Positions 4,031 through 32,600 of a stretch of DNA of 64,000 nt are shown here, piece by piece. Position 1 is the first letter of the stretch. Every line of letters begins with the position of its first letter. The position numbers were made by a program, and so were the translations under genes. Under the pieces are notes generated by a model. The model had not been told where the DNA came from. It saw only the letters and a program-made list of their open reading frames with translations, and searched no databases. Source of the stretch: Sialis fuliginosa (lineage: Eukaryota; Arthropoda; Insecta; Megaloptera; Sialidae); contig OY540813.1 of the NCBI GenBank assembly GCA_961205875.1, positions 17,951,001-18,015,000 on the forward strand, given 5' to 3'.

Positions 4031-5911
4031 TATGGTTGATATCTTTCTAGTCATGATGGATATTAAAAAATATTATTATTGTTAGAGAGTAGGAATGGCG
4101 GTTTGAAATAATGCGGTATAACTGTTCAGTAATTTGTATGTATACATGTAGATATTTAATGTTATTATATACATTTACATAACATATAAAAAGCAGTTAT
4201 TATTTTTTTGCTTACAATTAGACATGTAGGTACTATAGGAAGAAGACAGAATATTTTTATAAAAAATATCCCCATGATTTTCATATAAATAAATTTAATT
4301 ATAACTTTATTTTTTATTGTTAAAAAAAATAAAATAATAGGTTTATAAACTTTTGTTAATCTGTGATTCATTTTTCACAAGATCAATCCTTTGGAAGTTC
4401 AAATTTATATTAACTCACGTTTATCAACATTTTCCACGACATTCTCAGAATCTATATATGATTTCCCGAAGAGTTGCAACCTATTTAAGAACTACTGGTT
4501 TAAAAGAAACAAATAATCGTACATTCAAAAAATATCTTGACATTTTTCATTAATTTTTTTACAAAAATGGATATAGTACTGCTATAACACTTTTTAAATA
4601 TTATTATAATTATTAATTTTAAGAAAAGTATTCTAAAAATAGTGTTTAATATGTCAAAAGAAAAAAATACAAAATTATAAAATATAATAAAATAACAAAA
4701 TCAAACAGAATAATATTTATAAAAGCAGAGGAATGTATATAGTAAAAAAAGTTGTTCTGTATTTAATTATTTATTAGCTAATTAAATTACTTAAAAACAA
4801 ACTTTTAAATTATCTCATAGTTAAAAAAAAATTAAGAGCCCGTTACTAATTCAAGGTTAATAAAATATTCCATGTTTTTATAACCTACATATCAACTATC
4901 ATCAAATTACATAGATAAAAAGACAATAGTAATTTTGTGTGTGATCTAGCAATTATTACAAGTTTAACTATTATATTTCATATAAAGATAGATTATTTAT
5001 CTAATTGTTCTAAAAATAGACAAAAGTAAAAACTACCTATCTTATCTGATACAGAAAAATGCTTACCTAATGCTATGACAGGAAATAGAGATGTCAAATT
5101 AAAAATAAAATAATTACCTTATATCGTGTTTCTTTAATTGACTTCACAAATATTTTATGTAACAGGTAAAAAAATGTTCATCAATTATTATTATTTTCTT
5201 GAATACGTCACTTTTGAGTAGGTACTTAATACTTAATAATAAGTAAGTTACCTATAGGAGAATCTTTTAAATGAAACATTACACGAATAATATATTTATG
5301 ATTAAGAAGACAAATATTAATATCCATATGGAGATATTTAATTACTAATTGTAAGTGTACTTTGTTCGGGACCCTAATAAGAATTTTTAAACGTACTCAT
5401 AATATATGTAAATTTTGTTTGATAGGAACAATTTCGGAACATTTGTACAGTATTATTTAAAATAAAAAATATATTTACCTATAAGGTACTAGCACCAGTT
5501 ATGGCCGCTATAAGAGCAAGGTTTACTGTTTTTGTGATTGATGGGTTTCTTTTTTGTAATTCTCATGAACTCATGTTACTAATAAAATAAGTAACTCTTT
5601 ATTTAATCAATATAATTACCAAGATCCGCAAATATAGTTTTTTTTTTAATTATAGCCTTTTATTTTGTTTATATTTTTTCTTCAGTAATGTAAAGCCATT
5701 AATGAGCACGCAGTGATGGACACTTGCTAATGATTACAAAATGATAAGTACTATGACACAAAAGATATAATAAAAATAATCGTCAAATTTGAATCAATGT
5801 AAAGTATATAGTTACTATGATAATATAATAATTAATAAATAAATTATACTAATAATAATGTCCACCATTTTGACACCTATTGGCCGATTGTCATCAAATC
5901 ACACTGTAATG
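4031..5911. other. AT-rich stretch, nothing recognised
   Basis: It is poly-A/T-rich DNA. The two overlapping short frames near 4165-4553 show no domain or codon signal. Confidence 0.5.
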
Positions 5912-6046
5912 CCGTGTTCATACCGAAAAAACAAAACAGCAACATCGTGTCTTTTTAACAAAAGTGCAATAAAGCCTATGTATTTTTAAATACGACGTGT
6001 TTTCAAACACCGTGTTGCTGTTTTGTTTTCTTTGGTGTGAACACCG
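5912..6046. mobile_element. short terminal-inverted-repeat element (MITE)
   Basis: The arms of about 40 bp, CCGTGTTCATACC...CAACATCGTGT and its complement ending GGTGTGAACACCG, flank a short core. There is no coding capacity. Confidence 0.6.
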
Positions 6047-8509
6047 CATAAGACAGTTAAATATGTTATATATATATAAATTAATATTTAGAAATGGTAG
6101 TAATCAAATATCAACAAATATGATGCTATGATTATGAAGACTATACCACTGTTTTCAATTTTCTTTTTCAAATTTTTCTGGCTAACTGATAAAAGATAGA
6201 AAAAAATGAATGGGACATAAATTATAAAAAATAACGTATTCTACAATTTTTTAAATATAATTTAAAAAAATAAAATATTAAGTATATTTTCTGCAACTTA
6301 TTTTGTATTCTTTACAAATGTCTATGTATTATATTAAACATCAGGGCGAAAATAGTCAAAATGGAATCAGTAAAGATCAAAATAAATATTTCTATTAAAA
6401 TCTCGAATTCGAAAAATATCGGCTTAACAATACTTACTGATACTATGCATATGGCTGTATGAGGAAGTAAAAATGCGGATAAAGTTAAAATTTAATTAAA
6501 AACTACTACATACATACACCATTGATTATTACTAACCACAAGATTTCCGATTACAACATTAATCAATACACGCACATATTTGTGTTAATATCGTCACAAT
6601 AATTAACGTACGCCTCTGTTCACTTTGTAAGTTTTTTTATCAAACACATCATCACGAATATGTAGAGACAGTAATTAGACAAATATTCCAAAGCATTATG
6701 AATGAGTTTCAGTGCTTTTTACGCAGTTCTCGAACTTACTTCTTTCAGAATATTTTAAATTACATTCATATAAAAAAGTGTAATACATTATAATCTCATT
6801 TATTGAGGAGTGACGGCAAGAGTTATATCTGACAGCTAATCTAGTAAGTATTAATGTAAAATGTATACTTACATACATATATATGTGCCTAACTATTTAT
6901 CAATATCACATTAAGCTTTTTTAAATTATATATTATATATAAATGATTTATTTTTTATTGTGAAAGAAAATTTTATTGGCTAAAGTATTGAAATAACTGA
7001 GCATCGGCTGCATTTATCTATATATTAATACGTGAACATCGAAAATTGTCGTATTTATATTATAAAAGGAGGTGAATAGAACATATTTCATTCGAAAGTT
7101 ATACTGTGCCATAGATGTAATCAAAAAATCATGTGTGTATGTAGAGGTAAGGCAGGTAAAATAAAGTTAACATACACAAATGATTTCCCCTCTGACTGTT
7201 TGCTTATTTCCCTTCGCATCGTTCAATAGCATAACAATACTCTTAGCGCCACCAAACGGCAAAAAGAAATAGTTTTGGGTTTCTGTGAAACGTAGAGAAT
7301 GCATATAGAGATTTCAATTCACAGTATTTTTATTTGGATTTTTTTTTAACAGCAGGTTAGATTAGGTACTGTACCATAGGCGACACAAGTTATATTATAA
7401 TTTATGATAGAAACTAAGTAAATAATGCGGAAAGTTTTATAAAAAAATAGTATTTATTTTACAGCAGAAGAAAATATTTAAATAATTCTTTCCCGGTATA
7501 CTGAAAAGGGATCTAAATATAGACAAAATAAATAACATTTTTTATGTAAATTAAGAAAATTAATCCCATTTATTTCTCAAGGGAAAAACCTTCTACACGT
7601 GAAACGAAACAGCCTTCAAATCGTCCACAATACGTTCCTGTATTAAACTCTTTGGCTTACGCATTTTTATTAAAACTGCACTTATTTGAAGAACATAAAC
7701 GACAACAATGTTACAATTATTTTAATTTCATTCGTATTGCCAAAATATAAGATATGGTGTATTATTTTTTATTGTCTCGAGGGTAGTTTCGCTGTATTAT
7801 TTTACAATTTTTCCATGCGGCACGCAATTTGCCAATGACATTTCCTCACGAAACCTTAGCCGAATCGCAGAACTCGATTAATAAGTAAACTAAGTTGAAA
7901 TCATCTGGTTGCTGTGGTGAAATTAATCAATATTTTTTACCGGTGATTGTTGCGAATTAAATTATTGTTTAGAGTGTACTCAAAATTTTAATTGATTATG
8001 AAGTTAACATTTACATTATATTAATACGAAAGCATGGTTATATTTGTCATAATATTGATTTTTAAATCTTGTGTCGAATCATTAATGTATTAAAGAATAT
8101 TAATCAGTGTTCTAGATCTGAATATTTATTGCTAGTAAATTACAATTATAATAATGATTCGATTTTCAAATGAAAACGACTACATAGTTTGTAAATAACA
8201 TAAAAATACCTGGGAAATAAATTGTATATTGTTGTTTGGGATTTTAATTATTGCACAATTATCTACATACATTTATGTATATGCATACACATATAATGAA
8301 AATATGTATTTAATATAATTTATAGACATATTTAAAACATAAAAAACAAAAATTGTTATTAAATATTGAATATATTAGTTTTTTAGCTTAAAATTAAATT
8401 AAGTAATATAACTCTGTAAAAATAAATTGGAACTATGTGTTTCGTTCGTGATATTGTATTTGGGTAAGTATCTAAAGTAATATTTATGCTATTTTTAATA
8501 AATACCTAT
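6047..8509. other. AT-rich stretch, nothing recognised
   Basis: No gene, RNA gene or repeat boundary was recognised. The open frame at 6696-6878 looks like chance. Confidence 0.5.
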
Positions 8510-9127: not shown

Positions 9128-11995
9128 ATACAAAGAATTAATACAATTTTTTATTCTTATAGTACCTACCTAAAAAGTTTTAGAAAAAATATTATTATTT
9201 ACTTCCATATTTTTTATACAGTTCTACGGGAAGTTGTTGAAACTAATCAACTGTTATTTTCAACTCATTATTTATTTAAACTTATGTGTTACATCACTTT
9301 ATTTTTGGGCAATAAATTCTCAAATAATTTTTTGTGTTAATTTTAACAGAATTATCGATAATTTTAACATATTTTTTACCAATAAAATAAATTGATGCAC
9401 AAATATTTTATTAAATTTTATGTGTACCCATTAAAAACTGCAGACATTCTTCTTTTCGAGGCTATTTTTTTTTTTTCAATAGCAGCATCCGTTTGAAAAA
9501 TGTATGAGTAGGTACTCGTAAAGGGACACATAAAAAGTATGTATGTAAATGAATTTACTTAAAAAAATAGTGAATATAAAATTTTTATAAAGTATATAAA
9601 ATTTTGAATCTCATATTTAATATCTTTTAAAACTGGATTTTCGAACACGGAATGCTTGGTTAACTTTTTATATTGTTTAAAATTGAATAAACATACTAGC
9701 AGTGTTTTCTATGTAAAAGTGAAATCTCAACAAAGCAATTATATTAACTTGTTGAAACCAAAACAAAGTTCACAAAGTTTAAGTTTCAATGTTGTTTTTC
9801 AAACCTTTTCAATCATTTGTTCATATATATGAATGTCTAACTGAATTAGTTTATATACGAATGTATTTTTTTAATAACATATAATTTTTATAATAACTTG
9901 TTAAAATATTTCATTTGACGTAGTATTAAAACAAAATATTTCTTGATCTTGGCTTATTTTGAAACTAATGAGGAGATTGTTAAAAAAGTAGTAGATATAA
10001 AATGTTTTATATTTATTTGAATCTAAACGCAAATGATTAATAATATATACCTATTAAAAATAATTAAATTATTTAATCCGGTGTTATAATGATTATAATC
10101 TAGAAAAAAATCAAACCAAACGCTATCTGTGAACTTTAAATTTAAATGACAGTTGTATGGCATTTATGAATAATTTATCGCATGGTCTTTAAAATAAGTA
10201 TAAATGCGATATCTAAATGCAGAGTACAGTGTACATCATAGAATAATAGCAACCTTACATTATTATAAATTATTATACAACTGTTCTAAAATCCAGACAA
10301 AATTTTATAGCGATTTGACACCCCTTAGAAAGTAAGGTGTCATATTTTTCATATGAAATGAAATTATATTTATTGTAGATAATAATTATACATTTTATTT
10401 ACGCATAATATTTATTTTCAAATAATTTTATATTTTCTATAGAAATGGAATTTTTAAATGTAATGGTTATTCTGAAGAAGTTCTCTAGAAATAAAAATAA
10501 ACAATATTACAATATTTGAATTATAAGATACGGGAATTTCCTGTCTATAGTAAATATACAATATATGTATATATATCATTGAACGTTTCTGTTATAAATC
10601 CATAGATAACATTATTTGATTAAGGATACGTATACGCCTGTATGTATTATATATTGAAAATTAAGTACCTATATTGATCAGTTATAATATAAGTGGCACA
10701 GTACTTATAAAATAAATATAATTTACAAATTTTAAAATACTTATCTTGCAGTTTTGTAAAAATTTAACAAAATGTTTATATGGTTTTCAAAAGCGAGCAC
10801 GAAATAAGGTATACCTACATTTTTGAATATCAGATTTACTAGATCGTTAAAATAAAATAATGAAAACTTTATTGCATTTAATGCTTTCGAAGTTTTCTTT
10901 ATAATAAATAATACTCAATATATTTTATGTATAGATATTATTTCAATGATTTATATATTAGATATACAATATCATAGTATTTAAATATTTATATGTATAA
11001 AACATATATGATTGGTGTAGTATGTAGTTGTTATAAAAAAATAAATAAAAGTACAGTTAATGTCATAATAAAGTAATAATTATTGTAAGTAATAAAATTG
11101 ATCGATAGTTTTATACCTCATATTTTTAACAAGTAGGTAGATCGGAAATTTAGAAAACAAGTTTTTCTCATCTGACATTGATTCTAATAATAATGTCAAT
11201 GCTATTACATATTTATTAATATATACAAGTAGCTATAGAATCCGTTACTGAAAATCGACCGTGAAAATTTATATAAAAATTATTTTAATAGTTACCACTA
11301 AATCATTGGTCGTAAAATTGAAAATAAAACTTTACAATGAAAATATAACGATGAATGAAATTGCATTCTACGATATATCGAACAGTATTAATTTTAATTT
11401 TTTTTTTGAATTTGTTTAATGGTAACAATTTCTTTGGCAGTTTATTATAAATTTTTGTAGCATAATTTAGAGACGTTTATAAAACAGTCGACAAAGATCT
11501 AGCAGTTTGCAAATAGTCGTCTTTATTCGTAGTATTATAATCGTGAACACGCACGTTATTATTAAATAGATTTGTTCCTTTTTTTGCGAAAATATTCTAA
11601 TATGTATAAAAGCCAGTTAAAGTAAGTATTTTTAATTATTTGAATAAATAAGAACTCTTTCTACAAATAATTTTATATATCTTTTTTGAACAAATGAATA
11701 AATTTTGAGTAGAACTTGAATTTCTTCCAAAAATGTTCCTCAAAGTTCTATGATTACTCATGATATGCAATTATTAATGTTAGTAAGTATAGTTGTATTT
11801 TTCTTTAAAACACAGAGTAAATAGCATAATTTTGTACATTTTATCTATTAAGTGGTAGATGTGAATTTTCCAATTTAGATGTTTATAAAAGACCTAAAAG
11901 TATATCATGTTCAAATTCAATTTTATCATTGGATATTAACTGTAAATTGTTATTTATTCCCCCATACTCTCCAAATTAAATGAATTTTGTTTTTT
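9128..11995. other. AT-rich stretch, nothing recognised
   Basis: It holds many short AT repeats but no gene, RNA gene or element boundary that I can support. The frame that starts inside the hAT element at 9071 is a shadow. Confidence 0.5.
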
Positions 11996-16280: not shown

Positions 16281-18813
16281 TATTTCATGAAAATTTCCAC
16301 GTTTTTATGAGAGGTTTTTATATGGTTTAAAAGTATTTTATCTGATAAATGTTACCAGATTAACAGATACTTTATTATACTTACATTATAAAATGTCAGG
16401 GTGCGAAATGATATTTATCTGGATAATTATCTCGTCTCGTTTTGTATCGTATGCAGTCTTAATTATTTCGGAAAAAGTTTTGGTTTCGAATAGGTTTCGG
16501 AGGTCAAACTAGTTTCGGATATCCAATAGTTACGGCTTAGGATACGGAGCTCCGTAACATCCCTTGTTTGTTTTATGTGATGGCGTGGTGAAAAATTTGT
16601 CTGAATACTGACATATTTCAACTGAGATTTATTTTATTGGAAATTAAAAAATATATTAAAATCAGTTAATCGTATATAAGTATCTTGATAGTTCTCCAAT
16701 ATTCTATTTTGAAACTATGATCATTTTCATAAAATTTGCAGTCTAAAAATTTATATGTTAGATATGTATAATGTATAATATTATTATTTTAAACGGGATT
16801 ATCTTCCCATTCCCTGGAATCTGCCTGTACAAATAATTACACGTTAATAACAATACAGCAAATAAAAATGCAAAAAAAAAACTATTACAAAATGACCAAA
16901 AACAATTTTTTTTATAAAAAACAACTGCTCTGATCACGCAACAAACATTGGTCAATTAAACTCGGAAACAGACATAGGATATATAATTAAATTACAATGT
17001 TTACAATAATAATAATTATAGTCACAGCAATTAGCGATTTTACACCCGTATCGTGACATCAACATTTGTCGGAGTGAGTGATGTAGAGGGGGTGCGAGAT
17101 AATACAAGAAAATGACCTGCAGTGCTTCCAAAACCTGGAATGATTTTTTATTAGAATATAATTTTTGAGATAAAGAGCTTATAAACACATTTTGGTTTGG
17201 TTTGATCGAAAGTAGGTTTATTTGTAATAATAATATATAAAAAATTTAGATACCATTGCTGAAATAAGCATGGATTTCATACGTCCAAACTGTTTATATT
17301 ATGGTCGGTGGCCTCCTCTCGCCAAAAAAGGTTGATTAGCCTGGTAGCCTGTGGCTAAATGGGGCATGGCGAGTTGAGTCCTGACAGCCATTCTCTCGCT
17401 TTTTGGTTCTTATTATTTTTGAAGAAAAAAATAAAAAACCACACATAAACAGTACTAATTACTTACACATAAAATGCAAATGGATTAGTAAATTTTTGAC
17501 ATACATTTTGCTTATTTTCTTATTTGTTGGTTACCCAGTAGGAAACTGTTTTATATAAAGGCATACATGGACTATTATTATCAATTCATATTAGTTTACG
17601 ACTTGAACCTGAATTTTCCGGGAAACATTTTTAGATCTGATTGGATCACTTAAGATCTAAAATTTTTCCTCGGGTTATTTATGGTTCGTGTTCAATATCA
17701 TCAACATCATTTTTGGTATCTTTTCAACGGAATTTTTTTAGGAATTGTGTTTGTATATTATATTAGTATTTAAAAAATTTCGTGTATAAATAATAATCAA
17801 AATCACTACTTCATATATTATAATATATAATAATAGTAACGTTTTGAATAAACGTTGGCCCACATTTAAAAAGGGTTTGTATATTCTGAAAATTACATTA
17901 AAATAAAGCTAGGGAGAAAAATATAAAGAAGAATTTGTTAATTAACCATATATGTATATTATAAAAATAACCAATTGTTAAATATACAAATCAAATTTTT
18001 GTATCAACCTTTTCTGACACTAATTTTAACACGTTGTATTTTTTGTATTCTTTCATCTCTGCAAAAATAATTAATTTTTTTACTGAAAATATTTTCATAA
18101 ATCTTTTAAAAATCAAAAAAGAAAACCGATTAAAATATTACAAATATTTTTTTTAACTTATTAAAAATAACATAAAAATATAAGGTTTAGTTCCCTGATT
18201 TAAAAAAAAAAATGATATGTACGTGTTTTAGAAACACTGTTCTACAACAAGCAATTGAAAGAGTGAGTGAGAGCAAGCAAGATAAGTGGGAGGGAGTATG
18301 TGTAAGAGACAATGAGAGATGTTGACCATAGGAATATGTATGTATATTGAATATTTGATTTGGATCTAAATTACAGACGGCTACTAGCTTGTACAACTTG
18401 TTGACGATTTTTGTTTGTTATTGTGCCTTAACAGAACTAGTGTTTATTATAGTGTACTTAAAGGTTTGATATGTCTTTTGATATTTTATTTTATTTTCAT
18501 TGAGTTAATAAATTGTTGTAAAAAGTTAAAAAAAATAATTTTTTTTCACACTTCAGGATAATTTAATAGATATATTAAATTAATATGAATTGTGAAAAGT
18601 TATTTATAATTTATAATAATACTTCTTTTTGATGTTATTTACATTAAAAGTGGAAATATTTGCCCCAGGGTTACTATATTTTGTATTTAATTATGACTGA
18701 TGATAAACGATTATGATATTTTTAAATTTTGTACTTGAATGCTAAAAGGACTTAATGTTAAAATATTGAGTTCGGCGATTTAAGTGTGTCTTATAAAAAA
18801 TTGAAATGAATAT
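16281..18813. other. mostly AT-rich, with one unexplained GC-richer patch
   Basis: The patch at about 17300-17405 is G/C-rich compared with its surroundings. It lacks an open frame of note and does not show a tRNA B box. The rest shows nothing. The frames at 16758-17188 and 18187-18396 look like chance. Confidence 0.4.
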
Positions 18814-18869
18814 AAAAGTGCTCAAAAGCTGATAAATTATAAATTAAAATAATCTTTTTGAGCACTTTT
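18814..18869. repeat. short inverted repeat (hairpin)
   Basis: AAAAGTGCTCAAAAG pairs with CTTTTTGAGCACTTTT, with a loop of about 24 nt. Function is unknown. Confidence 0.6.
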
Positions 18870-19128
18870 TCTTGTTTTTATTTATTTATTCACGACTTGA
18901 CGATGGTCTAATTAAAAAGGGCATTATTTTTTTTATAAGAAACACTTCAAAGTTAAAATTGAAATTTTGACACCATAGGATTACAAATATGTATAACAAT
19001 ATCCTCTTTTCGCGATCTTTTTCAGAAAAAAATATGAAACATAAAATTAAAAACTAAAAGGAAACTATAATGTAATATGGTATATTCTACATATACAAGT
19101 CTTGAGGTTTCCGCGGTGATCTTGGTAT

Positions 19129-19277
19129 GGATCTTGGCTTCTGGGTATAAACCGCGTCGATTTGGTCGTATTATCAGCCAATGTTCCGCCAAACATTGCA
19201 GTGTGCATCTTCAGGGCTCTTCTAAAAATAACTTTTAGAAGAGCCCTGACGCGGCTTATACCCAGAAACCAAGATCC
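19129..19277. repeat. nested palindrome upstream of globin exon 1
   Basis: Outer arms of 30 bp (19129-19158 and 19248-19277, GGATCTTGG...AAACCGCGTC) enclose an inner perfect 16-bp hairpin, CAGGGCTCTTCTAAAA (19212-19227) with its complement (19233-19248). The left side carries 53 unpaired bases. It ends 168 bp before the splice acceptor of the start-codon exon. Open frames in it on both strands are an effect of the palindrome. Confidence 0.75.
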
Positions 19278-19445
19278 ATTGCACATTCTATTTATTAATT
19301 TTAAAATAATAAAAATTAGAAGAGCTAATATTTTTCTATTTTTATTGAAAACATGAATACAGTATTAGTGAAGTAAAAAAATATATGGATTTTAATTTAT
19401 ACTTTTTTTTTTAATTCTAAGAAATTAATTTTACATCTTTGCAGG

Positions 19446-19648
19446 ATGGGTAACCTGTTGGACTATTTCTGGGGCGCAGTCGGTGGTGGGGGCAGGAGTA
19501 GCCGAGTGGATCCACTTCCAGACAACGCAGCTTTCGATGTTCCCGATCACGTGACAGGACTGACTCCTAGAGAAATCCACGCGATTCGGGATACGTGGTA
19601 CGCCATGAAGAAAGATATCAAAGGGATTGGAGTTAGCTTATTTATAAA
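19446..19648 (+). CDS. globin exon 1 (start codon, N-terminal extension, helices A to B)
   Basis: The exon begins one base before the ATG, at an acceptor with a T-rich tract and cag ending at 19444; the donor GTAAGG starts at 19649. It encodes 67 full codons plus two bases. The protein starts MGNLLDYFWGAVGGGG, followed by an acidic linker, then LTPREIHAIRDTW (helix A, conserved Trp) and the start of helix B ending GVSLFI. The leading Met-Gly could suggest N-acylation as in some membrane globins, but the residue at position 6 is Asp, which does not fit the usual myristoylation consensus, so I do not claim it. The upstream leader exon was not identified. Confidence 0.95.
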
Positions 19649-22600
19649 GTAAGGAAATATATAATATAGCATATAGCCCTTTCGGATTTTATTTCAAAAT
19701 CTGTATGTAATGAATTTTTTAAATTGAAGTTTCATATTGACGAAATAAAATAAACTGTGTTATATCAAGTGTTTACCTACTCACGTTATTAATATTTGTG
19801 ATTTTGATATTAACCCTAGAACCTTACACAGGGATTACCCAGAACCCACAAAATTTGTGAAAAATGGTAAAATAAATTTTCTTTCATTGTCCAATCGCAT
19901 TTTTCACGGCGAAAAAATAATAATACCTACTATATTTTTTCCAATGTCCTATTCCATTGTTCAGACTTTGAGCTTGCAAATGAAAAAAAAAGTATCTCTA
20001 CGACCAACAGTCAGTTCAACACACTGATTTAATGTGTTGGGGGTGTGTGTAAGCCCTGTGTAGGTTATTTGTTTCATACAATATAATGTAGGGTCCTAAG
20101 GTTAAAACAATAAAAAATATACATAAGTATACATGTATATTTTATGTGCATAAACTATTGTAGATTTTCAGGGTTTTCGTTTTTTTAATATATTTATTTA
20201 TTCACTAGGGAACCTCTTAAATGTACCATTTCTGATTTTGTTTAGATTGAAATATGGCATGTGTATTTTTAATAGCAATACAATAGGTTTAAATAAAATC
20301 ACTATTTATAATAAAAAATTAACGCGGTGGGAATTAAATCCGGATGTAACATTTCTTTATCTGAAATCTCTACCAGTGGATCTCCGGTCTTTTGTTTATA
20401 TAGGGTTTAAAATAGTTTAAATATATTAAATGTACATAAAATATATTTTGTTATACCTTGTAATCAATGACACGTCTACCACCAAAATCAGGTGTGTATT
20501 ATCTACACCATATTTCAGTATGAAAAAATCGAAAGCGATCCCCGTTGCCAGTTAATTATTACATTTCTTCAATGACTAGTATTTGCCTTATTCTTTACAT
20601 TAATATTAAGAAATTTTTCTTAATAATATATTGTACTATGGTGAAAATGAATACTTATTTATTTCAAAGGTTATTCTCAAAGTATCCGAAATACAAAGCA
20701 TACTTCAAGGCGTTCAAAGATATACCAATAATGCAGTTGCCAAACAATGTGAAGCTCCAGGCGCACGCCACGGGCGTCATGTACCAGGTGATGTGTTTGA
20801 TAGACACATTAGACGATCCTGAAACTCTTATTGCCATGTTACACAAAGTCGGAGACAATCACGGGAAGCACAATGTCACAGAACAAGCCTTCTGGGTGAG
20901 TAGTACAGAGAGGGAGTTATTCAAGCGTAATGCTAGCTAGATGCATATTTTAATTTGCACTGTTTTCATTAGTTTGTGATCAGTGGCGTAGTAACAAAGT
21001 GGACTATAAATAAAGTAGAACTCCTTATTTTTTTCATCTCCTTATCATTTTATTTTCTATGGCTTCACACGCTAGAACTGGGTAAATATCATATTAAATA
21101 TTATAACTTATTCGTTGGCCAGTAATGCTGAAGAGTTTTTATTTGACAATTTTTACCCATTAAATCCCATAAAGGTGGAAACTATAAAAATGTAGTTTGA
21201 CAAAAATTTACTTTCGGTTGTTCTCTCGACTATAAAACTGCATCAGTTTTAGGGGTACACCGAAAGTGAAATTTTCAATTTCGGCCGGAACCGGATTACC
21301 GGAATTCACAAAAAAATCTGTTTTTATTAGTAATAATAATTAAATAATTTAAATTTTATACCATAATCCGAAATTTTTAAAAATCTTTGATTTATACTTG
21401 AACAGTTCAATGTTCATAATATAATGACATTTTTATTAATATATTATTATAAAAAAATTTTGTTTATTTAATATCTCAGCTTGGCGCGATCCTACAAACT
21501 CAAACTTTTTTTTAAATATAGCTTACACCATTAACATTAAGAGTATCAAGTGCCCTTAGACCGTCGTGACCCTTTTCTCCTATTATAAACAAATTAAATT
21601 TGATAAATTTATAAATAAGCTGGATAATTTAGGCCAATTTATAAATGTTATAATTACAACTAAACCATACTTATGCCGAACAAAATGTAAAAAATTGCAT
21701 TTGTGTTATGAAATTATTGTTCCCATTAAAATTTTTGTTAATAAAATGTTGTTATATCATAATTATTATATTTATATTAGATTTTTTAAACAAAAATAAC
21801 GTGTATTATTTATGAGTTTCTTTGTAGATAGTAATAATAAAATTTAAAAATTCCGGGAAAATCAGGTCAGAATTTACCAGTTCAGGCCGGAACCGGAACC
21901 GGAATAAAATTGCGAATTCCGGGACACCCCTAATTAGTTTATACAATTTCGCACGGAACTAGAATTTTTTTAAATGAGTTTATAGTTGCTATAAAATAAT
22001 ATATCCTTATCGAAGAAAACAATTTTATTTAAATTCTCTTTGAAATATGTTACCATCTCTCAAAATTAATTGCCAAATGACTTGTTAACGAATTTCTATT
22101 AAAAGTATGTTAAGTTGTGAAAAGATTTTACAAATTTTAAATTGATTTTTCATGGAAAATTTATGATAATCAAAATGTCTTAGGTCAGACTAATTACTCA
22201 GGCTTTTTATAGAAATTAAATACATATATTAAATTGATATTAATAGCACCAAAATATTAATTGTTGACTTTGACTACTTTTGAATTATCATTATTTTTTT
22301 TAGACCTTATAGGTATATTGTATATTATTATTGTATTTTGCTTAATTTCTTAAGCCGATGAAAAGAACTCTGTGGATACATTTTTCATGCAAGATAATAA
22401 TTTAATTATTTGATTTAATCACATACTTATGCGGAAACAAGAAACGCATTTTTAATATTACATTAATTCTACTTACGTAATATTTCAACAGCCATAAAAG
22501 TGATCTTTATTCTGTATGTACTCATATGGCTTAGTTAGGCAAGCATGAAAAATAAGAAGCAAAAGAAGAGAGAAAAAGGGAGTATGATAACTATTTAAAA

Positions 22601-25600
22601 TTCTTTTAAAATGTTTGAAATTACTTAAAATGGAATAGTTAATAGATTGAACATTTGCGTTCTTAGAATTTTCTTCGAAATATGAATTGTAAATTAATAA
22701 TTTCAAATTTAAATAAACAATAAAAGATAGATATATATCTACAGGGTTGCGGAAATTGCAAGTATTAGTTTGATTTATTATCGAACAGTGGTTACATTTG
22801 TAAGTAATATTGGGGTTAAAACGTTGGTTATCTCCTTCCTATAACTACACGGATAAACTATTCCTATTATTAAAATTAAATTTTTGACTATCCAATATGT
22901 CACTTCTATAAGTATTATACATATGTCCTCGTTTTTGCCTCACCTTTAAAAATTAATTATTAATTCAACACCTATAAATAATCGTGACTTGTTAAATAAT
23001 TTTATTTTAAATTAAAATCCTTTATTCATTTAGATGTACATTTACGGTTTCATTTAATTTAACCCTTGTGTATCCATTAGGATAGTTACCCGACGAATTC
23101 TGTATGTAATTATTTTTTTGATTTTATTGTTATGCTATTTCTTAAGAAAAAATAAAAAAGTATTTGGAAGTGACCGATTTTTGAACCTAGATTTAAACGA
23201 ACGTTGGTTAATGGATTAAGATGAAATCTGGTATACGGACGTAGATTGATAACTCAAAAACAGAAATTATGAAATTAAAAAAAACATTTTTTTGGACCCC
23301 CCTAACATAGACTGAAAAGTGTACTCAAAAAATGTTTTTCACTTAGGGTGTCATTAGATAGGCCTCTCAAAATACAACAAAAAATGTTCTAAGAAGTTTT
23401 AATTTTAACCCATCAGTCACGAGAACAGAAAAGAAATATATTTAAGAAATTTATCTTTTTTGTAAAAAAAATATAATATAATTTACCTTCTAAATTGAAC
23501 GTCATAATAAAAACACTACCGTTTGTAATATCGAAACTTTTACATTGATGTTAATAACATTTGTTTTCTATTTACATATTTTCATTGATTTTAAAATGAT
23601 TATTTAAAATAAAATGTAAGGTCATTAACAGTAACATTAAATTTGATAACAATAACATAGGGTTAAAGTGTATTATATTTTCAGTTTCATATTTTGACTT
23701 TCAGTTAAAATTTTCAAATAAAGTATGAGCGAAACATATATAATATGAGAAAAGAATAACAGTTCTACACTTTTTTGTTTACATATATGCCACCACTGTA
23801 TTTCAATAGAAAATTACAATTTAAAATGAATATGTTCGGTCGATATTGGGGTAGAGTCCATGTTAGTCTTAGTGCTTTTAGAGGTCAGAACTCAAATAGG
23901 TCGTTACCATATATTATGTCCAGCACTAGTTTTAACTCAGCCCGCAAAAGATCGTCTGCATGCAATGATATATGTGCAAGTACAGATAAACACTGCTATT
24001 AAATGTGGTATAGGTACTATGTATAACAGTGCTTTTAAAAATGTTATGTATTGTTCAATTCAAACATTTAATACATATATTAATACATAACATCCTATTG
24101 TAACCCAGTCAATAGGCAATTTTGGGTCAAGGTATATTAAGACAAGGTAGTCTCATTAGCTCCTTAACCAATTAAAGATGGCGCGGGAATTGATGTGACT
24201 ACGAAGACATTCAAATCTTATAAATATATAATTGAATATCAGTTACAAAAAATGCTTTAATTTATTCTTGTTTTCATTATTTTGATTTTTTAACACATAC
24301 AATCAAAGAAATACAAATTCGACATTGCAAAATCATAAAAAAATGTCAGAATCACAGAACGTATTACCAATAGTAAGAATGATGCTTCCCGAATAGACCA
24401 AAATTTCTGTGACAGTTTTTTTGTGATTTTGCAATTTCGAATTTGTACTTATTTGATTGTATGTGTTGTGAAAATATCAAAAAGTACGAAAACAAATGTA
24501 AATAAAGGAATTTTTTGTAATTGATATTCAATTATACATTTATACGATTTGAATATGTCTTCGTGGTGACGTCAATTCTCGCGTCAACCTTGATTGGTGA
24601 AGGAGCTGATGAGACTACCTTGTCTTTATATACCTTGATTTTGGGTAACATTAAATCCAGGAGTTTTGATATTTAAAAGGTTCACGTAATTTTGGGTTCT
24701 ATATATAATTGGTGAGTTTTTGACCTTGGCGCTGCCACGACAATATTAATAAAAAATTCGTACTTTTTCGACTATTGTAAGTTTTGACAACAAGGATTCG
24801 AAAATATGAAATTTTATTTTCCTACAACACATTTTAAAGCAGGTATAAATAGTAGGGTGTTAAATCCAGTTATAAAATGTATATTGTTTGTCTAATTAAT
24901 TAAATAATACATTTATCATTGTTGTGTTCCTTGATTATTTATGTTTTGTGCATTATAGGTTCACAACTATTGTGATTTAATTTTATATAGGGAAAATAAT
25001 CACTTCATTTTCGGGTATAAACTACGGAAATGATGATATTTAGTATAATAAAAATTATAATATTTATATAGTATATATTTGGTAAGGTTAACCAGGTATA
25101 TTTTTTTTATTAAGGAGGAAATATTAATATATGTAATATATGTTCTAGGATCTAAAAGACGTATTAATGGAATTATTAACAGAGGAACTTGGCACAAAAT
25201 TCACTACCGAGAGGTCAGATGCGTGGGGAAAAATGTTGGATACTGCTATAACAGTTATAGTTACAAAATTGGACGCAACAGACACTACATAGATTCAATT
25301 AATTCAATTTGATCGATGTCTTATAGAATTTAACTTTTTTTAAATCTGAAATATTAGTTTTTATTTGAATAATCTGTTCATAGGTAAATACTTAATTAAT
25401 TTTTTGAGCACTTCATATACTTTAAATATATACCTACCTAATATGTTGGTAGTTTATGTTTCAGAATAAATCCGTCAAACATTTATATGCGGTACTGTTG
25501 ACATTATATAAGCTACCTAAATATATGTATATTATTTACTTATCTATACAGTGCATTCCAAAAGTTCCGGGCCACCTAAATAACTTTTGAATGGTTTAAA

Positions 25601-28600
25601 ATATAGGATTTCAATTTATAAGGATACAATGGGATTACAAAGTCTATTATTTAACCATAAAAACACTCACCTGTACACACCTGGGTGGCGGGGGCAAGAA
25701 ATCTTAAATGGCACGTGGGGTCGAGTGAAGGCTCGTTCGAAAGGGTTTTCCAAGACGAAAAACAACGCGGGGTCGTCGAGATCTCTACAATTTTTTTTCG
25801 AAGATTTATGATCATTTGAACATACCTATTGAGATTAGGTTAACGGCGTTTTCAAAAATGTTCTGAAATGAAAAAAAACAGAAGAGTAGAATTTTGTGAC
25901 ACAATGATGACACGATTTGCTGATAAACGTCAGGTTTTCAATTGGATAAAATTTTTTCATTTTAGAACATTTTTGAAAATACATTTAACTTAGAGACCTA
26001 TGCGATCCCGCGTTTTTTTTGTCTTGGAAAGCCCTTTCAAACGAACCCTCACTCAACCCCATGTACCATTTAAGATTTCTTGACCCCTCCCCCCGCCATG
26101 CAGGAGGGTATTTTTGTAGTTAAATAATACACTTTTCATTTCAATCATATATTTTAAACCATTCAAAAGTTATTTAGGTGACCCGGAACTTTTGGAATAC
26201 ACTGTATATGTATATATTATTAAATTTTCCTTGGCCTTGAGAGGTAAAGGTAAATAATTTTGTACTCACTAAGGTCCCTTTCAAGTAGAATCGAAGATAG
26301 TTTACTGTGAGACGATTATTCTGAAATGTATGTGAATGAAAACAAAATAATATATTTTTATATTTTATAGTTTTTATATAAGGTACAAAGAAAAATATTT
26401 TTATAGCTTTAACTAGAGATTAAATAGGATTTAATATTTTTAATAATGTATATTAAAAAAATAAAAATTTTATTGGTTTGTTTGACTTTATTTTATAAAA
26501 TAAGTTATCATTTTTTTTACTAAAGTTAATTTAATACTTTTCCAAATTTTATAGTATAGGACGGATGGCCAACCTTCTTCTTTTTTTCCTTTCTTGGCTA
26601 CCTTTTCTACGTAAACCAGTCACATTTTATGGCGGTCCTATGCACGTGAATATTCTACATGCTTTTTTGTGAAATAATAATTATTTTTGTGTTAGTTTTG
26701 TTCTTTTCATATCTTATTGAAAACCTCTTATAATAAATTGTAATCATATTTTGAAATTTAATTTTTTATAATTAATAAATTAGCTGGCATGTTAGCATTT
26801 TTTTTGATTTTAGCACGCGAGCAAAAAAGGTTCGCCATCCCTGGTATATAGGAGCTAATTTGTTCTTGTATATATAAAACAATTTTAGCATTTAAAAAAA
26901 AAAATGGTGAGCACAAATATTAATTTTCAATTTTTCTGGTAAATCATTAAACATTATAAAAAAATATTTCATTTAAAATGGAGTTTAAGAACAAGTCTCT
27001 GTGTTATTAAATAAATTCCAAAATGACAGTAATTTGGTATTTTTGAAGGTGATATTTTTTTAGTTTCCGGTTAGTAATAACTTTTCTATAAAAGTGGATA
27101 ATTATAAATAATGTTATTTATTTGCTATGGATAATAAAAAATGTACACGCGTTATTACCATGTTTTGCCCTTGAAAACATTAAATACGTGTTATATTTTC
27201 GATTCTCTTTGTTAATTCTGGTCATGGATTTCACACTTAATAAATAAAAAAATATATACTAGGTAATTACACTTTAAACAATTATTGTAACATAGAAATA
27301 GAAATGTTTTTATTTGGAATACGATCATCTACAGAAAATTCTGAATCTAAATGTTTATGGTAAATTGTAAATTAAGAAAAAATATTTTACTTTCCTTTTG
27401 ATTTGGGGAATAGTAATGAATTTTCAAGTAATATTAAATAATTTATAAAATACCCCGAATATGGTGGCAGTAATGTTGAATCCCATGATTGATCGTTACT
27501 TTTATGATGTTAAATATATAGTTGGTTATGATACAAATAATAAATTTATGTAGTATTTTTTGAGTTCTTTTTTTTATAAGCATTATTATATTATAAGAAA
27601 ATTTAAAATATTTTTATCAACGAACAAATAAATAAATAAATTTAAAAAATATTAATATAATACCAACCGAATATTTTACATCTTTAGAAACACTAAATAA
27701 ACTATTGACTTAATATGCATTGCCATATCCAATATGAGATAGTCAATGTTGTTTTAGTTATTGAATGAACGTAAATAATTTATAAGTATTTATTTCCTCA
27801 ATAACTATTTTCTTAACACATTGTGTGCAGTATAGATGGCCCACGGGTACTTACAAACATTGTAGCCACGCAGTAAACACAGTAGCCATGTTCAGTGAGT
27901 TTGTACGATATACATACATATATGTATACATATGTATGTATGTATATTATTGTATATGCTCAATATTCTTTAAACAATTGATTTTATATTTTCATTTTTA
28001 GGTTATTTTGTGGTATATTATAAAGAATATTTTATGTTTTTTTAGTTTTTTAAATTATTTAAAATTTGTTAGCCAAGCACGAATGTTCTAAATATTTCGT
28101 TCGCATTGAATGTGTTAAACGTTTACTATCATTCTAGTGATTAATTATCTATTGAAGTCTCCACTAATTTAATAATTATTATACATATCACTGTTTTTGT
28201 CAATCTTTTTTTATATTAGATTTTAAATTTGTATAACTAATTAATTATTACATCAGTTAATAGTATTATTTACGTATAGGTAAATAGATCATCAATTAAT
28301 AAATATTGTGCTATACTCGTACAATACTTTACGAAAACACGCAAGCGCAGTGACAGAAATGTTGAACCCATTATTTCCGTTAATCTTCGGGGCTTAGTAT
28401 AGCTGTATCCCAAGTTTCCCCTTGTCACCGGACCTGAAGACATATCTAAGTTTATGTTTATCTACCTACATCATTTCTGTGCCCCCTATGTTCGTTGCAC
28501 GTTGTACCAATTTAAAATTTTGATGTAAGAATATACTAAAATAAGACTGAATAAACCATTTTCTGTTTCAGGATCTGAAGGTCGTGCTCATGGAACTCCT

Positions 28601-28718
28601 TTCTGAATATTTTGGACCTAAATTGACGATCGAACAAACAAAAGCGTGGGACAAGATGTTAGATAAAGCATTTTTCTTGATATTCCAGAAACTACATTCG
28701 CCTATTGAAATTGAATAA
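19446..28718 (+). CDS. globin gene with two alternative terminal exons (gene-level entry)
   Basis: This is an intracellular heme globin, expected to bind O2 reversibly. The coding parts are 19446-19648, 20670-20895, and then either 25149-25292 (190 aa) or 28572-28718 (191 aa). The join exon 1/exon 2 is phase 2 and the join exon 2/exon 3 is phase 0. These fall at the ancestral globin intron positions B12.2 and G7.0. The heme-pocket residues are visible: Phe in AFKD (CD1), His in LQAHA (E7), and His in DNHGKH (F8). A conserved Trp (DTW) sits in helix A. The extension of about 35 residues before helix A (MGNLLDYFWG, then a Gly-rich stretch) resembles the N-terminus I recall for insect glob1-type globins. 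The start-codon exon is preceded directly by an acceptor (cag at 19442-19444), so the 5' UTR is split. Globin identity is certain; use of both terminal exons is inferred from their integrity. Confidence 0.93.
19649..20669 (+). other. globin intron 1
   Basis: This is a 1,021-bp phase 2 intron with donor GTAAGG and acceptor caaag. The acceptor tract is weak (only a short T run before it). No element was recognised inside. Confidence 0.85.
20670..20895 (+). CDS. globin exon 2 (helix B end to helix G start, heme pocket)
   Basis: The acceptor AG is at 20668-20669 and the donor GTGAGT starts at 20896. The first base completes a Lys codon (AA from exon 1 plus G). The next 75 codons run LFSKYPKYKAYFKAFKD (B/C helix and CD1 Phe), then LQAHATGVMY (E helix with distal His E7), then LHKVGDNHGKHNVTEQAFW (proximal His F8 and the start of G). 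The exon ends in phase 0 directly after the Trp codon, which is the G7.0 boundary. All residues expected for a six- or five-coordinate heme are intact. It lies 1,021 bp after exon 1. Confidence 0.96.
20981..21060. mobile_element. possible solo end of a hAT-like element
   Basis: It begins CAGTGGCGTAGTAACAAAG, like the end at 8510, within globin intron 2. A matching right end was not found, so limits are uncertain. Confidence 0.3.
21250..21932. mobile_element. hAT-type element with 8-bp target-site duplication (globin intron 2)
   Basis: The ends are TAGGGGTACACCGAAAG and its partner ending GGGACACCCCTA. Sub-terminal CGGCCGGAACCGG and CCGGTTCCGGTTCC stretches also mirror each other. The flanks atcagttt (21242-21249) and attagttt (21933-21940) match at 7 of 8 bases. 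The inside is AT-rich; the frame at 21566-21799 is not transposase-like. Confidence 0.7.
21941..24118. other. globin intron 2, unassigned AT-rich part
   Basis: I recognise no gene or element. Short frames at 22485-22706 and 23775-24090 show no domains. Confidence 0.5.
24119..24646. mobile_element. foldback element with perfect 9-bp target-site duplication (Mutator-like)
   Basis: The element body, 24128-24637 (510 bp), starts CAAGGTATATTAAGACAAGG and ends with the complement of a near-identical sequence. The arms run about 240 bp each to a centre near 24385. The 9-bp flanks attttgggt (24119-24127 and 24638-24646) are identical. Long arms with a 9-bp duplication fit non-autonomous Mutator-like elements. 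It sits in globin intron 2, 500 bp before exon 3a. Confidence 0.8.
25149..25292 (+). CDS. globin alternative terminal exon 3a (helices G-H, stop)
   Basis: The acceptor ttctag ends at 25148 and the exon opens in phase 0 with DLKDVLMELL. It continues to KMLDTAITVIVTKL and stops at TAG 25290-25292: 47 codons plus stop. The frame has no defect, and residues expected in helices G and H (Leu-rich G helix, AWGKML in H) are kept. About half of the residues are identical to exon 3b (I count 24 of 47 by eye), so the two are homologous but well diverged. An AATAAA lies at 25465-25470, upstream of a foldback transposon that starts at 25547, so a transcript ending here could be complete. The alternative view, a pseudo-exon, is less likely because acceptor, frame and stop are all intact. 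Confidence 0.9.
   Translation, partial: DLKDVLMELLTEELGTKFTTERSDAWGKMLDTAITVIVTKLDATDTT
25465..25470 (+). terminator. candidate polyadenylation signal for globin exon 3a
   Basis: A canonical AATAAA hexamer lies 173 nt after the 3a stop and before the foldback element at 25547. In AT-rich DNA the hexamer is common, so position is the only support. Confidence 0.4.
25547..26206. mobile_element. mariner-like palindromic MITE between globin exons 3a and 3b
   Basis: It is TA-flanked (25547-25548 and 26205-26206) with ends CAGTGCATTCCAAAAGTTCC and complement. The inverted arms are very similar for about 59 bp and recognisable for about 250 bp, so the whole element folds into one long hairpin. The frame at 25587-25811 is a by-product. 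Confidence 0.85.
26207..27812. other. AT-rich spacer between alternative globin exons
   Basis: I looked for remains of duplicated globin exons 1 and 2 and saw none. No other feature was recognised. Confidence 0.5.
27813..28118. mobile_element. piggyBac-type MITE, TTAA-flanked
   Basis: It begins TTAACACATTGTGTGCAG with TTAA at 27813-27816 and ends GCATTGAATGTGTTAA with TTAA at 28115-28118. The TTAA duplications and TTAACACATT ends are typical of piggyBac-derived MITEs in insects. It lies 453 bp before exon 3b. Confidence 0.8.
28572..28718 (+). CDS. globin alternative terminal exon 3b (helices G-H, stop)
   Basis: The acceptor gtttcag ends at 28571 and the exon opens in phase 0 with DLKVVLMELL. 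It continues to KMLDKAFFLIFQKL and stops at TAA 28716-28718: 48 codons plus stop. It matches exon 3a position for position in helices G and H without gaps until the divergent tails (SPIEIE here, DATDTT in 3a). An AATAAA lies at 28925-28930. It sits 3.3 kb beyond the 3a stop, with a palindromic mariner-like element and a piggyBac-like element between. I saw no copy of exons 1 or 2 between 3a and 3b, so this looks like exon duplication and not the remains of a tandem gene copy. Confidence 0.9.
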   Translation, partial: DLKVVLMELLSEYFGPKLTIEQTKAWDKMLDKAFFLIFQKLHSPIEIE

Positions 28719-28924
28719 ACTAATTTGTAGATAATAATTAGAGTATCGTTTAATTGTTATGGGGAAACTGATTCTCTAAAAAATTGGCAGGAATGCCATT
28801 TAGGTGTATATACATATTTTCGTAACTTTGGACATTCTCCCCATCTTCCCCGATTACCAAATATTGTATTGTGCTCCTATTTCAGTAATGAGATGCTTAG
28901 AAGCCAAAACGAGAAATATCAGTA

Positions 28925-28930
28925 AATAAA
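28925..28930 (+). terminator. candidate polyadenylation signal for globin exon 3b
   Basis: AATAAA lies about 207 nt after the 3b stop. No stronger downstream element could be judged by eye. Confidence 0.4.
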
Positions 28931-29499
28931 AATCAAGGGTTTTATTATAAAATGTATATAAATATTCATTTAATTCACCATGTTTGTTTATAAATGACTT
29001 GCTTAAGCATGGACGTGTATTTATTTTATTTTGAGTTAAAAGAAGACTTTTAAAAGTTTTTTATGAAGATCGTATTTAGTAAAAACTACGCCCATATGAT
29101 GTCCTTTTTAAAGCGTTTTTTGTAGATAGCGCATGATGTTACATTATACCTTTCTTGCTCATGCAGACAACGTAAAATTAAAAACAGATATCGTTTCGTT
29201 TGTTATACGAAAATTATTATACAATTTTATAGGTACTGCTGGTACTGTGTACGGTACTTTGAATTTTTTTTATAATTTATATTTTATTTTTGGGAATTTT
29301 TTCAGGCAAGAGTTGACATACATATAAATATATTTAAAGATAAATATGAAAATATGAACATATAAATTGTTAATTTTAAATCGACAATGAAAGTATTTAA
29401 ATAAAAATACCAAAATATTACACAAAATGTTTAAAATATAAATTGAGATTATATTATTTATATTTGAACTCGTGGTATTTACCCAAGATATGTAAAGTA

Positions 29500-29667
29500 C
29501 AGGGTAGCCTCAATAGCTCGGTGCGAGAGAGGGAAATACGTTATTTGGGGTGCCCAAAATGTGGAGAGGAGAAATGATGTACCCAATCATAATAAATATA
29601 GCTTTGTAAGTCGGTGCGAGAAGGGGAAAATACGTCATCTGGGGTCAAAAGCTATTGAGGCAACCTG
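29500..29667. mobile_element. short TIR element with internal direct repeat
   Basis: The ends CAGGGTAGCCTCAATAGCT and AGCTATTGAGGCAACCTG are inverted repeats. Inside, a stretch of about 35 bp (TCGGTGCGAGA...GGGGT) occurs twice in direct orientation. A target-site duplication is not evident. Confidence 0.6.
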
Positions 29668-32600
29668 AAAATTAATAACCTTGGTATTTACTTACTTTAA
29701 GTGGTTGCTAATCACATTTTTGGTAAATCTATTGTAGATATTGCATCGTTTCTCGATTTATTGATAATTGAAATTGATACGTAGATCAGAGTTATTTATA
29801 TTAACAATGACAATCAGAGACGAATACTTTTTACTCTTCTGTAAAATAATTATGAATTTTAATTTACATCTTCTAATATAGCTTTAATTAGATTATTAAT
29901 AAAATGTAACTTATTATTAAATATACTATTGTATAATATTAACATTTAAAACAATTCCATTCACGGGCGTATTGATGGAATTTAAAATTATATACAAAAA
30001 TATTGTATTTATTGTTATCTGCTTTTGGATTTTAAATTCTGAATGTGCCTATGATTTATTTATAAATTTTAAAAATTATTTTAATATTGTACAAATGATA
30101 TTAGGCTATATTGTTTGTTAAATAATTAATTGATTATTTTATGTTTGTTTGTTAAGAAAAACGACACAGAGCATGTAAAGTATTTATAAATTAAATAATA
30201 ATAAAATATATTTAACGTTTAAAATGTTATGATTAATTTTGTATTGTTCCTCATTCAACTTGCTTCTCAACTCGTTTTTTTGTAAATAGTGCTATAAAAT
30301 AATGAAGATATAAGAGGAGTTTGATTCGATATAAAAAATCAACAAAATTTACATATCAATATTTTATTTTATAAAGCAAAATTGTAAAAACAAAGCAACA
30401 ATTCGATAACAATGTTTATAACTACGCCTTTGCGTCTAACAATTAATAGTTCATAGCATTTGTTTTAGGTGACACAACACGAGTGTAGACACACCTACAC
30501 TTTTTACACTATTTAATTTTTTATTACATATCTATAATGTTTTTTTTTATACCATAACTATACCAAATAATATTTTCAGATTGTAAGTACATGTTATTTT
30601 TTTTTAATCTGGCGAAAAATTGTTATTGGATTTTAAATGAATAATTCTTATATGTAATGAAATGTAAAAAGAAAATATTTCTGGTACAGTGACTTTAAGA
30701 TTAAGTGTACAGTGTACAGAATTAATTTACCTCTTCCGGGCTTGACATAGATGAGATGGAATTAATGAAAAACCTCAAATTGTATATGAACATGTTTTGG
30801 TGATAATTTTTTTAGTTTATGTATGTACTCTTAAAAATAGATACATAATTTCATATACTACATACGCTATACAAACAATACATAATTCTTAATGTGATAA
30901 ATATATAAAACAATTAACCCAACAAATGTAAATATAAACTTATAGCTCATTTAATATGGATTTAATTAAATAATTAAACCCGTTTTTTACAAATAATGTC
31001 TATAAAAACACCATTTGTGTAAATGATTGTTTTTCATGAAAAAGTTAATTCATTTTTTTCTATGTATATTTATAAATAATTGATAGATTATTTAAATCTA
31101 TATAATTGAATGTAGATGAATTAATATCAAAAATTAACATTAAGATATTATTTTTATAGATGTTATTTTGTGCAATATCGTAAATAGTGTAGTTGGTGTA
31201 CACTTTTATATATTTATATAAATTAATCGCAATATGTTCCCATTTTTAAAGTAGAGCAATATTAATAGATTTTTTTTTGATAAAATCTATTTCATCCATC
31301 ATAATATAATAATTAACAAATCAATTCCTCGTCTTTATATTTTAATAAGATATATTCACCGTAGTCTTTTAAAAAACAGAATAACTATTTTATACACTTC
31401 ATTCTCAACTTTAGAAGTCATATAAATTTTTTTTAGTATGCGGTATTACTTTATTGTATAAAATGCCAGTTAGTATGTTTATGAATCAAAAATAAAATAT
31501 ACATTTTTATAAAATGAGCAAGAAGAAACTAATGTAAGATTGAAAAAACATAGAACGAAAAGTATTTAGTTATTCTGATAATAAAATATTTGTGGTGAAT
31601 CGTTTTTTTTTTTTCATATACAAGACATTAATTATTTATTTTTCTATTTTAATTTATGTTCGAATACATTTTTCGATGATGGACATATTATGTACGAATT
31701 TTTGTGTGCATAATTCGAATTTGGTCGTTCTACTTTACATTTATTTTATATAATTTATGTTTTTACATGTTTTTATGTACACATATATAATTGTAGAAAT
31801 ATTGTTTTAATATAACTACTTTTATATTTGTGTATATAGATCACATATACAACATATATTTTATTTATTTTTTTATATATTATTTAGATTACACATGTTT
31901 TAACTGTTCTACATACTAAGTAAGATATCATAATTAAAATAATATTTAATTTGATATTTTACATTATTTTCAACTAATTAAAATTTTAAACGACCAAAAG
32001 TTCTGAAATAATATTTTTGATTGCAGTTATATATTTAGAAATAAATTGTAATTGTTTAAAATACTTTTAAGGTGAGAAATTTGAATGTTTTAACAATATA
32101 TAATTACTACTGAAAATCATATATAGATTAGCTATTAGTTTGATTTTTATAAATATTGAAATTAAAATTTAATGGAAATTACTACTTCATATTTATTCTA
32201 AATAAATCACTGCATTTTCAGTGAGAATTTTAACATATAATATATTCTTGAAATTTATAACAAAATGAAACAAAAAAACATAACATTCTTGTGATATTAT
32301 CATATATAATATATTATAATAAATATAAAAACAAAATATATAAACATCTATCTCCATTTATTTTATTGTGCTACTACGAAATTTATATATTTTAAAGTTT
32401 TATTTTATTTATTTTTTGTTTTTCATTGCTACATTTATTTATTCTTATATTAATAGTATAAAATAAATTCTACAAAGTGTTCTTGATCTAAAATATTTCT
32501 AACAAATAGTAAATAATAATAATAAGAATACAATTACTATTTATATTAATCATAAACCAGTGGTAATGAAACTAACACAGAATATTGAGTATAATATTAA

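Follow-up and report, generated by a model that had tools for sequence, protein, structure and literature searches.

Two homologous candidate terminal exons in an HbL globin gene of Sialis fuliginosa

Arthropod hemoglobin-like (HbL) globin genes carry introns at positions B12.2 and G7.0 of the globin fold (PMC7457136, section 15). A gene of this type lies in a 64,000-nucleotide stretch of Sialis fuliginosa DNA, termed here the window (positions 17951001-18015000 of contig C5, in an assembly that comprises 392 Mb and 20 contigs). It is like the arthropod HbL globins in its three-exon body, intron positions, globin fold and the glycine at residue 2 (Gly2), but it has two terminal exons, 3a and 3b, where the HbL genes in the accessible text of that survey have one (PMC7457136). 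In the same text the string 'splic' occurs twice, both times in the reference list.

Tandem-duplicated terminal exons are known from other genes. The tropomyosins exchange C-termini by means of tandem-duplicated homologous 3′ exons, and C-terminal swaps account for 77 of the 236 human events of tandem-duplicated exon substitution given in the available part of that work (PMC9741552). A coiled coil or tail is swapped there, whereas in the globin the predicted swap would concern helix G, from G7 onwards, and helix H of a globular heme domain. The insect nicotinic acetylcholine receptor (nAChR) alpha4 gene likewise has a tandem exon duplication, exon 4/4′, that yields alternative forms. According to the portion of the source at hand, these are internal exon alternatives, in contrast to the terminal exons with ends of their own in the globin (PMC2064938).

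More than one transcript per globin gene has also been reported. For Caenorhabditis elegans T19C4.5 an alternatively spliced form is mentioned, as is predicted here, but its anatomy is not described in the accessible text, which mentions no duplicated terminal exon (PMC2228317). The Lucina pectinata HbI and HbIII genes give more than one mRNA form each, but as far as the available text goes the variants lie in the 5′ untranslated region (UTR; HbI) or at the poly(A) site (HbIII), outside the globin domain (PMC4732748). 'Splice variants' of insect hemoglobin are mentioned without anatomy in the part of PMC7274415 that is available. Among the matches listed from the open-access literature (titles and beginnings of abstracts) no globin with swapped terminal exons is described, which is not proof of absence, and public annotation may already include such isoforms.

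The gene is on the + strand and has one exon 1, one exon 2 and the two homologous terminal exons (Table 1). It is probably a single HbL gene in which an old duplication of exon 3 gave rise to two alternative ends. In the mechanism that the sequence suggests, the exon 2 donor would join 3a, with cleavage and polyadenylation behind it, or 3a would be skipped and the donor would join 3b, which lies a further 3.4 kb downstream. The resulting transcripts would encode globins with the same heme-binding body (N-terminus and helices A to G6) and different ends. Both junctions are probably used, and their use may be regulated.

The body looks like that of an ordinary insect HbL. The junction of exons 1 and 2 is in phase 2 and that following exon 2 in phase 0, matching B12.2 and G7.0, with the G7 register taken from alignment to a solved globin. 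Alignments to solved globins also place the E7 and F8 histidines at the expected positions, both in the shared exon 2; heme binding itself is predicted. An earlier note on this DNA had named these two positions as the ancestral globin introns and assigned both heme-ligating histidines to the shared part, with which the junctions and alignments agree. Exon 1 has an acceptor that scored well and starts one base 5′ of the ATG. A 5′ UTR exon would therefore be expected further upstream. The exon encodes the N-terminus MGNLLDYFWG..., and its Gly2 is a candidate myristoylation site, judged by eye against what is available of the acylation section of PMC7457136.

Homology, selection and copy number

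The two tails align without a gap, with 24 of 47 amino acids and 77 of 141 nucleotides identical. Within the window, each retrieves the other by tblastn, at E-values of 1.2e-11 and 1.5e-11, and the homology is therefore not due to chance. At the base composition of this intron, a random frame of 47 codons would stay open with a probability of about 0.015. The earlier note had described both exons as opening in phase 0 behind an acceptor, aligning without gaps at about half identity and closing with a stop of their own, and the description is borne out at the coordinates of Table 1.

Both tails also extend the globin match of the body. Against the Pfam Globin profile (PF00042), which has a curated cut-off of 22 bits, the shared part alone scores 51.3 bits; with 3a the score is 79.2 (+27.9) and with 3b 75.3 (+24.0), so that both forms exceed the cut-off. 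The 3a tail by itself matches the solved hemoglobins 1hlm (E 0.009) and 1hlb (E 0.018). For 3b alone the best match in the PDB is weaker (E 0.92).

The differences between 3a and 3b are distributed as in coding sequence. Identities at the three codon positions number 26, 37 and 14 of 47 (p 1.2e-5 for the coding pattern). Synonymous sites are saturated, and the best fit of a pairwise codon model goes to infinite time with a ratio of nonsynonymous to synonymous rates (omega, or dN/dS) near 0. If one copy had evolved neutrally ever since it arose, and both had diverged for the same length of time, an omega of about 0.5 would be the least expected. The pairwise model rejects this value and points to selection at the protein level: relative to the best fit, omega 0.5 costs 22.0-22.6 in twice the log-likelihood difference, and omega 0.1 costs 2.7-4.0, over four settings. 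Neutral copies simulated without insertions or deletions decay fast. At 0.5 substitutions per site, about 0.2% of 20,000 runs combined an open frame with at least 24 of 47 identities, and at 0.75 or more substitutions per site no simulated copy did. The rejection of omega 0.5 together with this decay indicates that both exons were protein-coding during most of their separation.

The genome-wide picture concerns the number of bodies and tails. Searches of the 392 Mb were made exon by exon and scored the best candidates only; the insect genome covered was the assembly of S. fuliginosa itself. The Globin profile marks exons on contigs C5, C6 and C9, with no further globin place among the matches listed. 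With the shared exons as query, the matches are this gene and one on C9 (four candidates scored), and no third HbL body appeared among the candidates scored. The 3b tail as query matches 3b, 3a and exon 3 of the C9 gene (three candidates scored at E ≤ 10). With two HbL bodies and three tails among the scored candidates, the extra tail therefore sits in the C5 gene.

These counts bear on the idea that the locus consists of two tandem globin genes, in which 3a (or 3b) is an orphan tail left by deletion of a neighbour's exons 1 and 2. HbL genes have been duplicated frequently in arthropods, according to the accessible part of section 14 of PMC7457136, and the intervening DNA contains repeats resembling mobile elements. 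The idea is nevertheless very improbable: tblastn revealed neither exon 1 nor exon 2 a second time in the window, and the genome matches scored supply no further body for the spare tail. Moreover, such a history would explain the origin of the tail and not its disuse, as a functional donor upstream would still make the orphan an alternative last exon.

The C9 gene is the best match to the C5 gene elsewhere in the genome, with 55 of 107 amino acids identical over the shared part, and a search of the 18 kb around it revealed a single exon 3. When the three tails are compared over 41 residues, 3a and 3b are nearest to each other in 8362 of 10000 bootstrap replicates; for 3a and the paralogue the number is 903, for 3b and the paralogue 75, and 660 are ties. 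This fits, without proving, a duplication of exon 3 after the C5 and C9 genes had split. Two further features of the paralogue are the Phe at E7, where the C5 gene has His (by eye, in an ungapped alignment), and the N-terminus MACPVTG, without the Gly2 motif.

Table 1. Coordinates of the globin exons, associated signals and other features (window positions unless a contig is named)
Feature	Position	Strand	Remarks
Exon 1	19445..19648	+	acceptor tttgcag/G; coding sequence (CDS) 19446-19648; ends in phase 2 (B12.2); donor GTAAGG
Exon 2	20670..20895	+	covers the last part of helix B through G6; phase 0 at its 3′ end (G7.0); donor TGG/GTGAGT
Terminal exon 3a	25149..25292	+	47 amino acids and TAG (25290-25292), DLKDVLMELLTEELG...; phase 0; preceded by ...gttctag; weak acceptor
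Terminal exon 3b	28572..28718	+	48 amino acids and TAA (28716-28718), DLKVVLMELLSEYFG...; phase 0; preceded by ...ctgtttcag; strong acceptor
AATAAA, candidate poly(A) signal for 3a	25465..25470	+	not significant alone
AATAAA, candidate poly(A) signal for 3b	28925..28930	+	not significant alone; stop codon overlapped by another AATAAA (28714)
MITE-like fold-back inverted repeat, located between 3a and 3b	25545..26208		outer arms 71 nucleotides, 93% complementary; no known part in the mechanism
HbL paralogue on C9	L008: exon 1 CDS 5773-5882, exon 2 6021-6246, exon 3 9187-9315		by eye; keeps both introns
Third, distant globin exon on C6	L010:8856-9053	-	GbXL-like by eye
nAChR-like neighbour, homologous ligand-binding exon pair	60374-60559 and 56462-56647	-	48 of 62 amino acids identical
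nAChR-like neighbour, further exons	near 44.8-45.0 kb; about 34.2-34.4 kb		by Pfam; by eye

Splice sites and the choice of terminal exon

Splice sites were scored with approximate, generic matrices, none of them trained on Sialis data. On this scale the donor of exon 2 ranks in the top 0.4% of GT and the acceptor of 3b in the top 0.2% of AG, and both are strong. A weak proximal acceptor followed by a strong distal one would suit a regulated alternative last exon, where such an arrangement is expected and would make the choice tunable. Use of 3a as an internal cassette before 3b was considered and rejected: the best inner donor-like site, after 25213, ends in phase 2 and would shift the frame of 3b. 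The AATAAA hexamers were likewise set aside as evidence for either end. They are present near both stops, as the earlier note had remarked, but the hexamer occurs here at 3.4 per kb and chance would place one within 210 nucleotides of a stop about half the time, so that its presence is uninformative.

Several observations weigh against the use of both exons. The pyrimidine tract at the 3a acceptor is poor, and among all AG dinucleotides of the + strand in the window 21% have an equal or higher score. G+C at third codon positions (GC3) is 15 of 47 in 3a against 78 of 142 in exons 1 and 2 (Fisher p 0.007), and is like the G+C content of the window (p 0.41); in other words, the third positions of 3a resemble background. 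In 3b, GC3 is 20 of 48, similar to exons 1 and 2 (p 0.13) and above the window (p 0.02), and the difference between 3a and 3b is not significant (p 0.40). Simulated neutral copies remain open in 20-47% of cases at 0.1-0.2 substitutions per site (20-25% at 0.2) and in 12-16% at 0.3, and a short recent neutral period for one exon is thus possible. The branches could not be told apart in a three-branch codon model with the tail of the paralogue added (41 codons), as saturated ones trade off against each other; two constrained fits scored above the 'free' fit, which means that the optimiser had not converged. Finally, a duplex search against 60 mononucleotide shuffles each found no base-pairing that would point to docking/selector control. 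Pairing of the intron start with the regions upstream of 3a and 3b was weaker than in shuffled sequence (z +2.4 and +1.5), that of the 3a downstream with the 3b upstream region gave z +0.2, and that of the two upstream regions z -2.0.

The acceptor, the third positions and the tolerance of a short neutral period would all be compatible with one exon, most likely 3a, being a relic that coded for a long time and recently went out of use, leaving only the 3b form active. This is unlikely. A weak acceptor does not imply disuse, since that of the obligatory exon 2 is also modest (11% of AG score as well), and low expression would account equally for background-like GC3. In addition, 3a shows no defect in its acceptor AG, phase, reading frame, length or stop codon, and in both the Pfam and the PDB comparisons it is a slightly better fit to globins than 3b. 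The position of a weak acceptor upstream of a strong one also allows the view that splicing to 3a is low-level noise or an unproductive regulatory end, in which premature polyadenylation cuts output and no functional second globin is made. Protein-level constraint on the pair would be unexpected if the 3a protein had never mattered, and this last view is the least credible of those considered. The reading preferred here is that of two alternative ends, both of which code for globin.

The two ends of the protein

The two forms, of 190 (3a) and 191 (3b) amino acids, share residues 1-143 and differ from G7 to the C-terminus. Tail positions are given in beta-globin numbering, with the register from alignment to a solved globin and conventional helix boundaries. 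The heme contacts of the tail, G8, H15 and H19 as in beta-globin, are identical in 3a and 3b (Leu, Ala and Ile, respectively), as are G11-G16, H7, H8 and H10-H13. The tails differ at G10, at G17 (T/S) and at the GH corner (E/Y, L/F, T/P, F/L), and in helix H at H2, H4-H6, H9, H14, H16-H18, H20 and H21, as well as at the C-terminus. The calculated charge of the tail is -5.2 for 3a and -2.1 for 3b.

The earlier note had proposed that one gene makes two globins, and that the swapped helices, which line the heme pocket and the dimer contact in many globins, may change oxygen affinity, partner or stability. The first part is supported, in that there are one body, two intact homologous terminal exons and protein-level selection for most of their separation, and that the genome matches scored offer the spare exon no other body. 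A change in the heme pocket, and with it in oxygen affinity, is not supported, because the three heme-contact positions of the tail are identical and the differences fall at the GH corner, other H positions and the C-terminus. The pattern is suggestive of an effect on the surface, on contacts with oligomer or other partners, or on stability, more than on heme contacts. The basis for this is thin: only three contacts are compared, and a helical-phase test of 3a/3b agreement was not significant for helix G (p 0.10) or helix H (p 0.13).

Surrounding sequences and wider meaning

In addition to the element between 3a and 3b, further fold-back inverted repeats that resemble miniature inverted-repeat transposable elements (MITEs) are present in the globin introns and 5′ region, at 24127-24638 and 19127-19279. 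Two tandem repeats were found at 18000-31000, neither overlapping an exon. Scans of the window gave no Rfam match at gathering score and no tRNA. The convergent neighbour is a neurotransmitter-gated ion channel gene, an nAChR subunit by eye, with an exon pair of its own that resembles the alpha4 exon 4/4′ pair as presented in the available part of PMC2064938.

Elsewhere in the genome, GbX is not seen among the globin places listed. Its absence would be in keeping with a holometabolan insect, although searching by single exons can overlook such a gene. Close to the C6 globin, at L011:2998-6548, weak tblastn hits recur about every 184 bp and mark a regular array. TTAGG/CCTAA telomere arrays are present at five of six contig ends inspected (L012-L017), the C9 end (L017) having none, and the contig end L013 opens with a reverse-transcriptase-like frame (by eye). 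A protein search with the 3b form returned 64 candidates, none at E ≤ 0.001. Pattern searches gave one match in viral contigs and nine in genome contigs, with no relative among either.

Perhaps a regulated choice of last exon provides a cell type, stage or condition with another G-H end on a heme-binding body that is possibly anchored to membranes through Gly2. The pair might then be an old splice-switched one that extends across an insect clade, and the switch might alter partner, oligomer state or stability rather than heme contacts. This is put forward tentatively, as a picture about which some doubt prevails.

In the globin literature examined, globins diversify mainly by gene duplication. 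If the arrangement proposed for Sialis is true, a last-exon swap of helices G and H would be another route. The swap is situated at G7.0, an intron position that ranks among the two most conserved in globins, and the adaptive value of such conserved positions is still not known, as stated in the accessible part of section 15 of PMC7457136. Globins with swapped exons could be overlooked in existing insect transcriptomes. One body with two ends would also be a natural pair with which to probe the role of the G and H helices in insect globins, whose function is debated.

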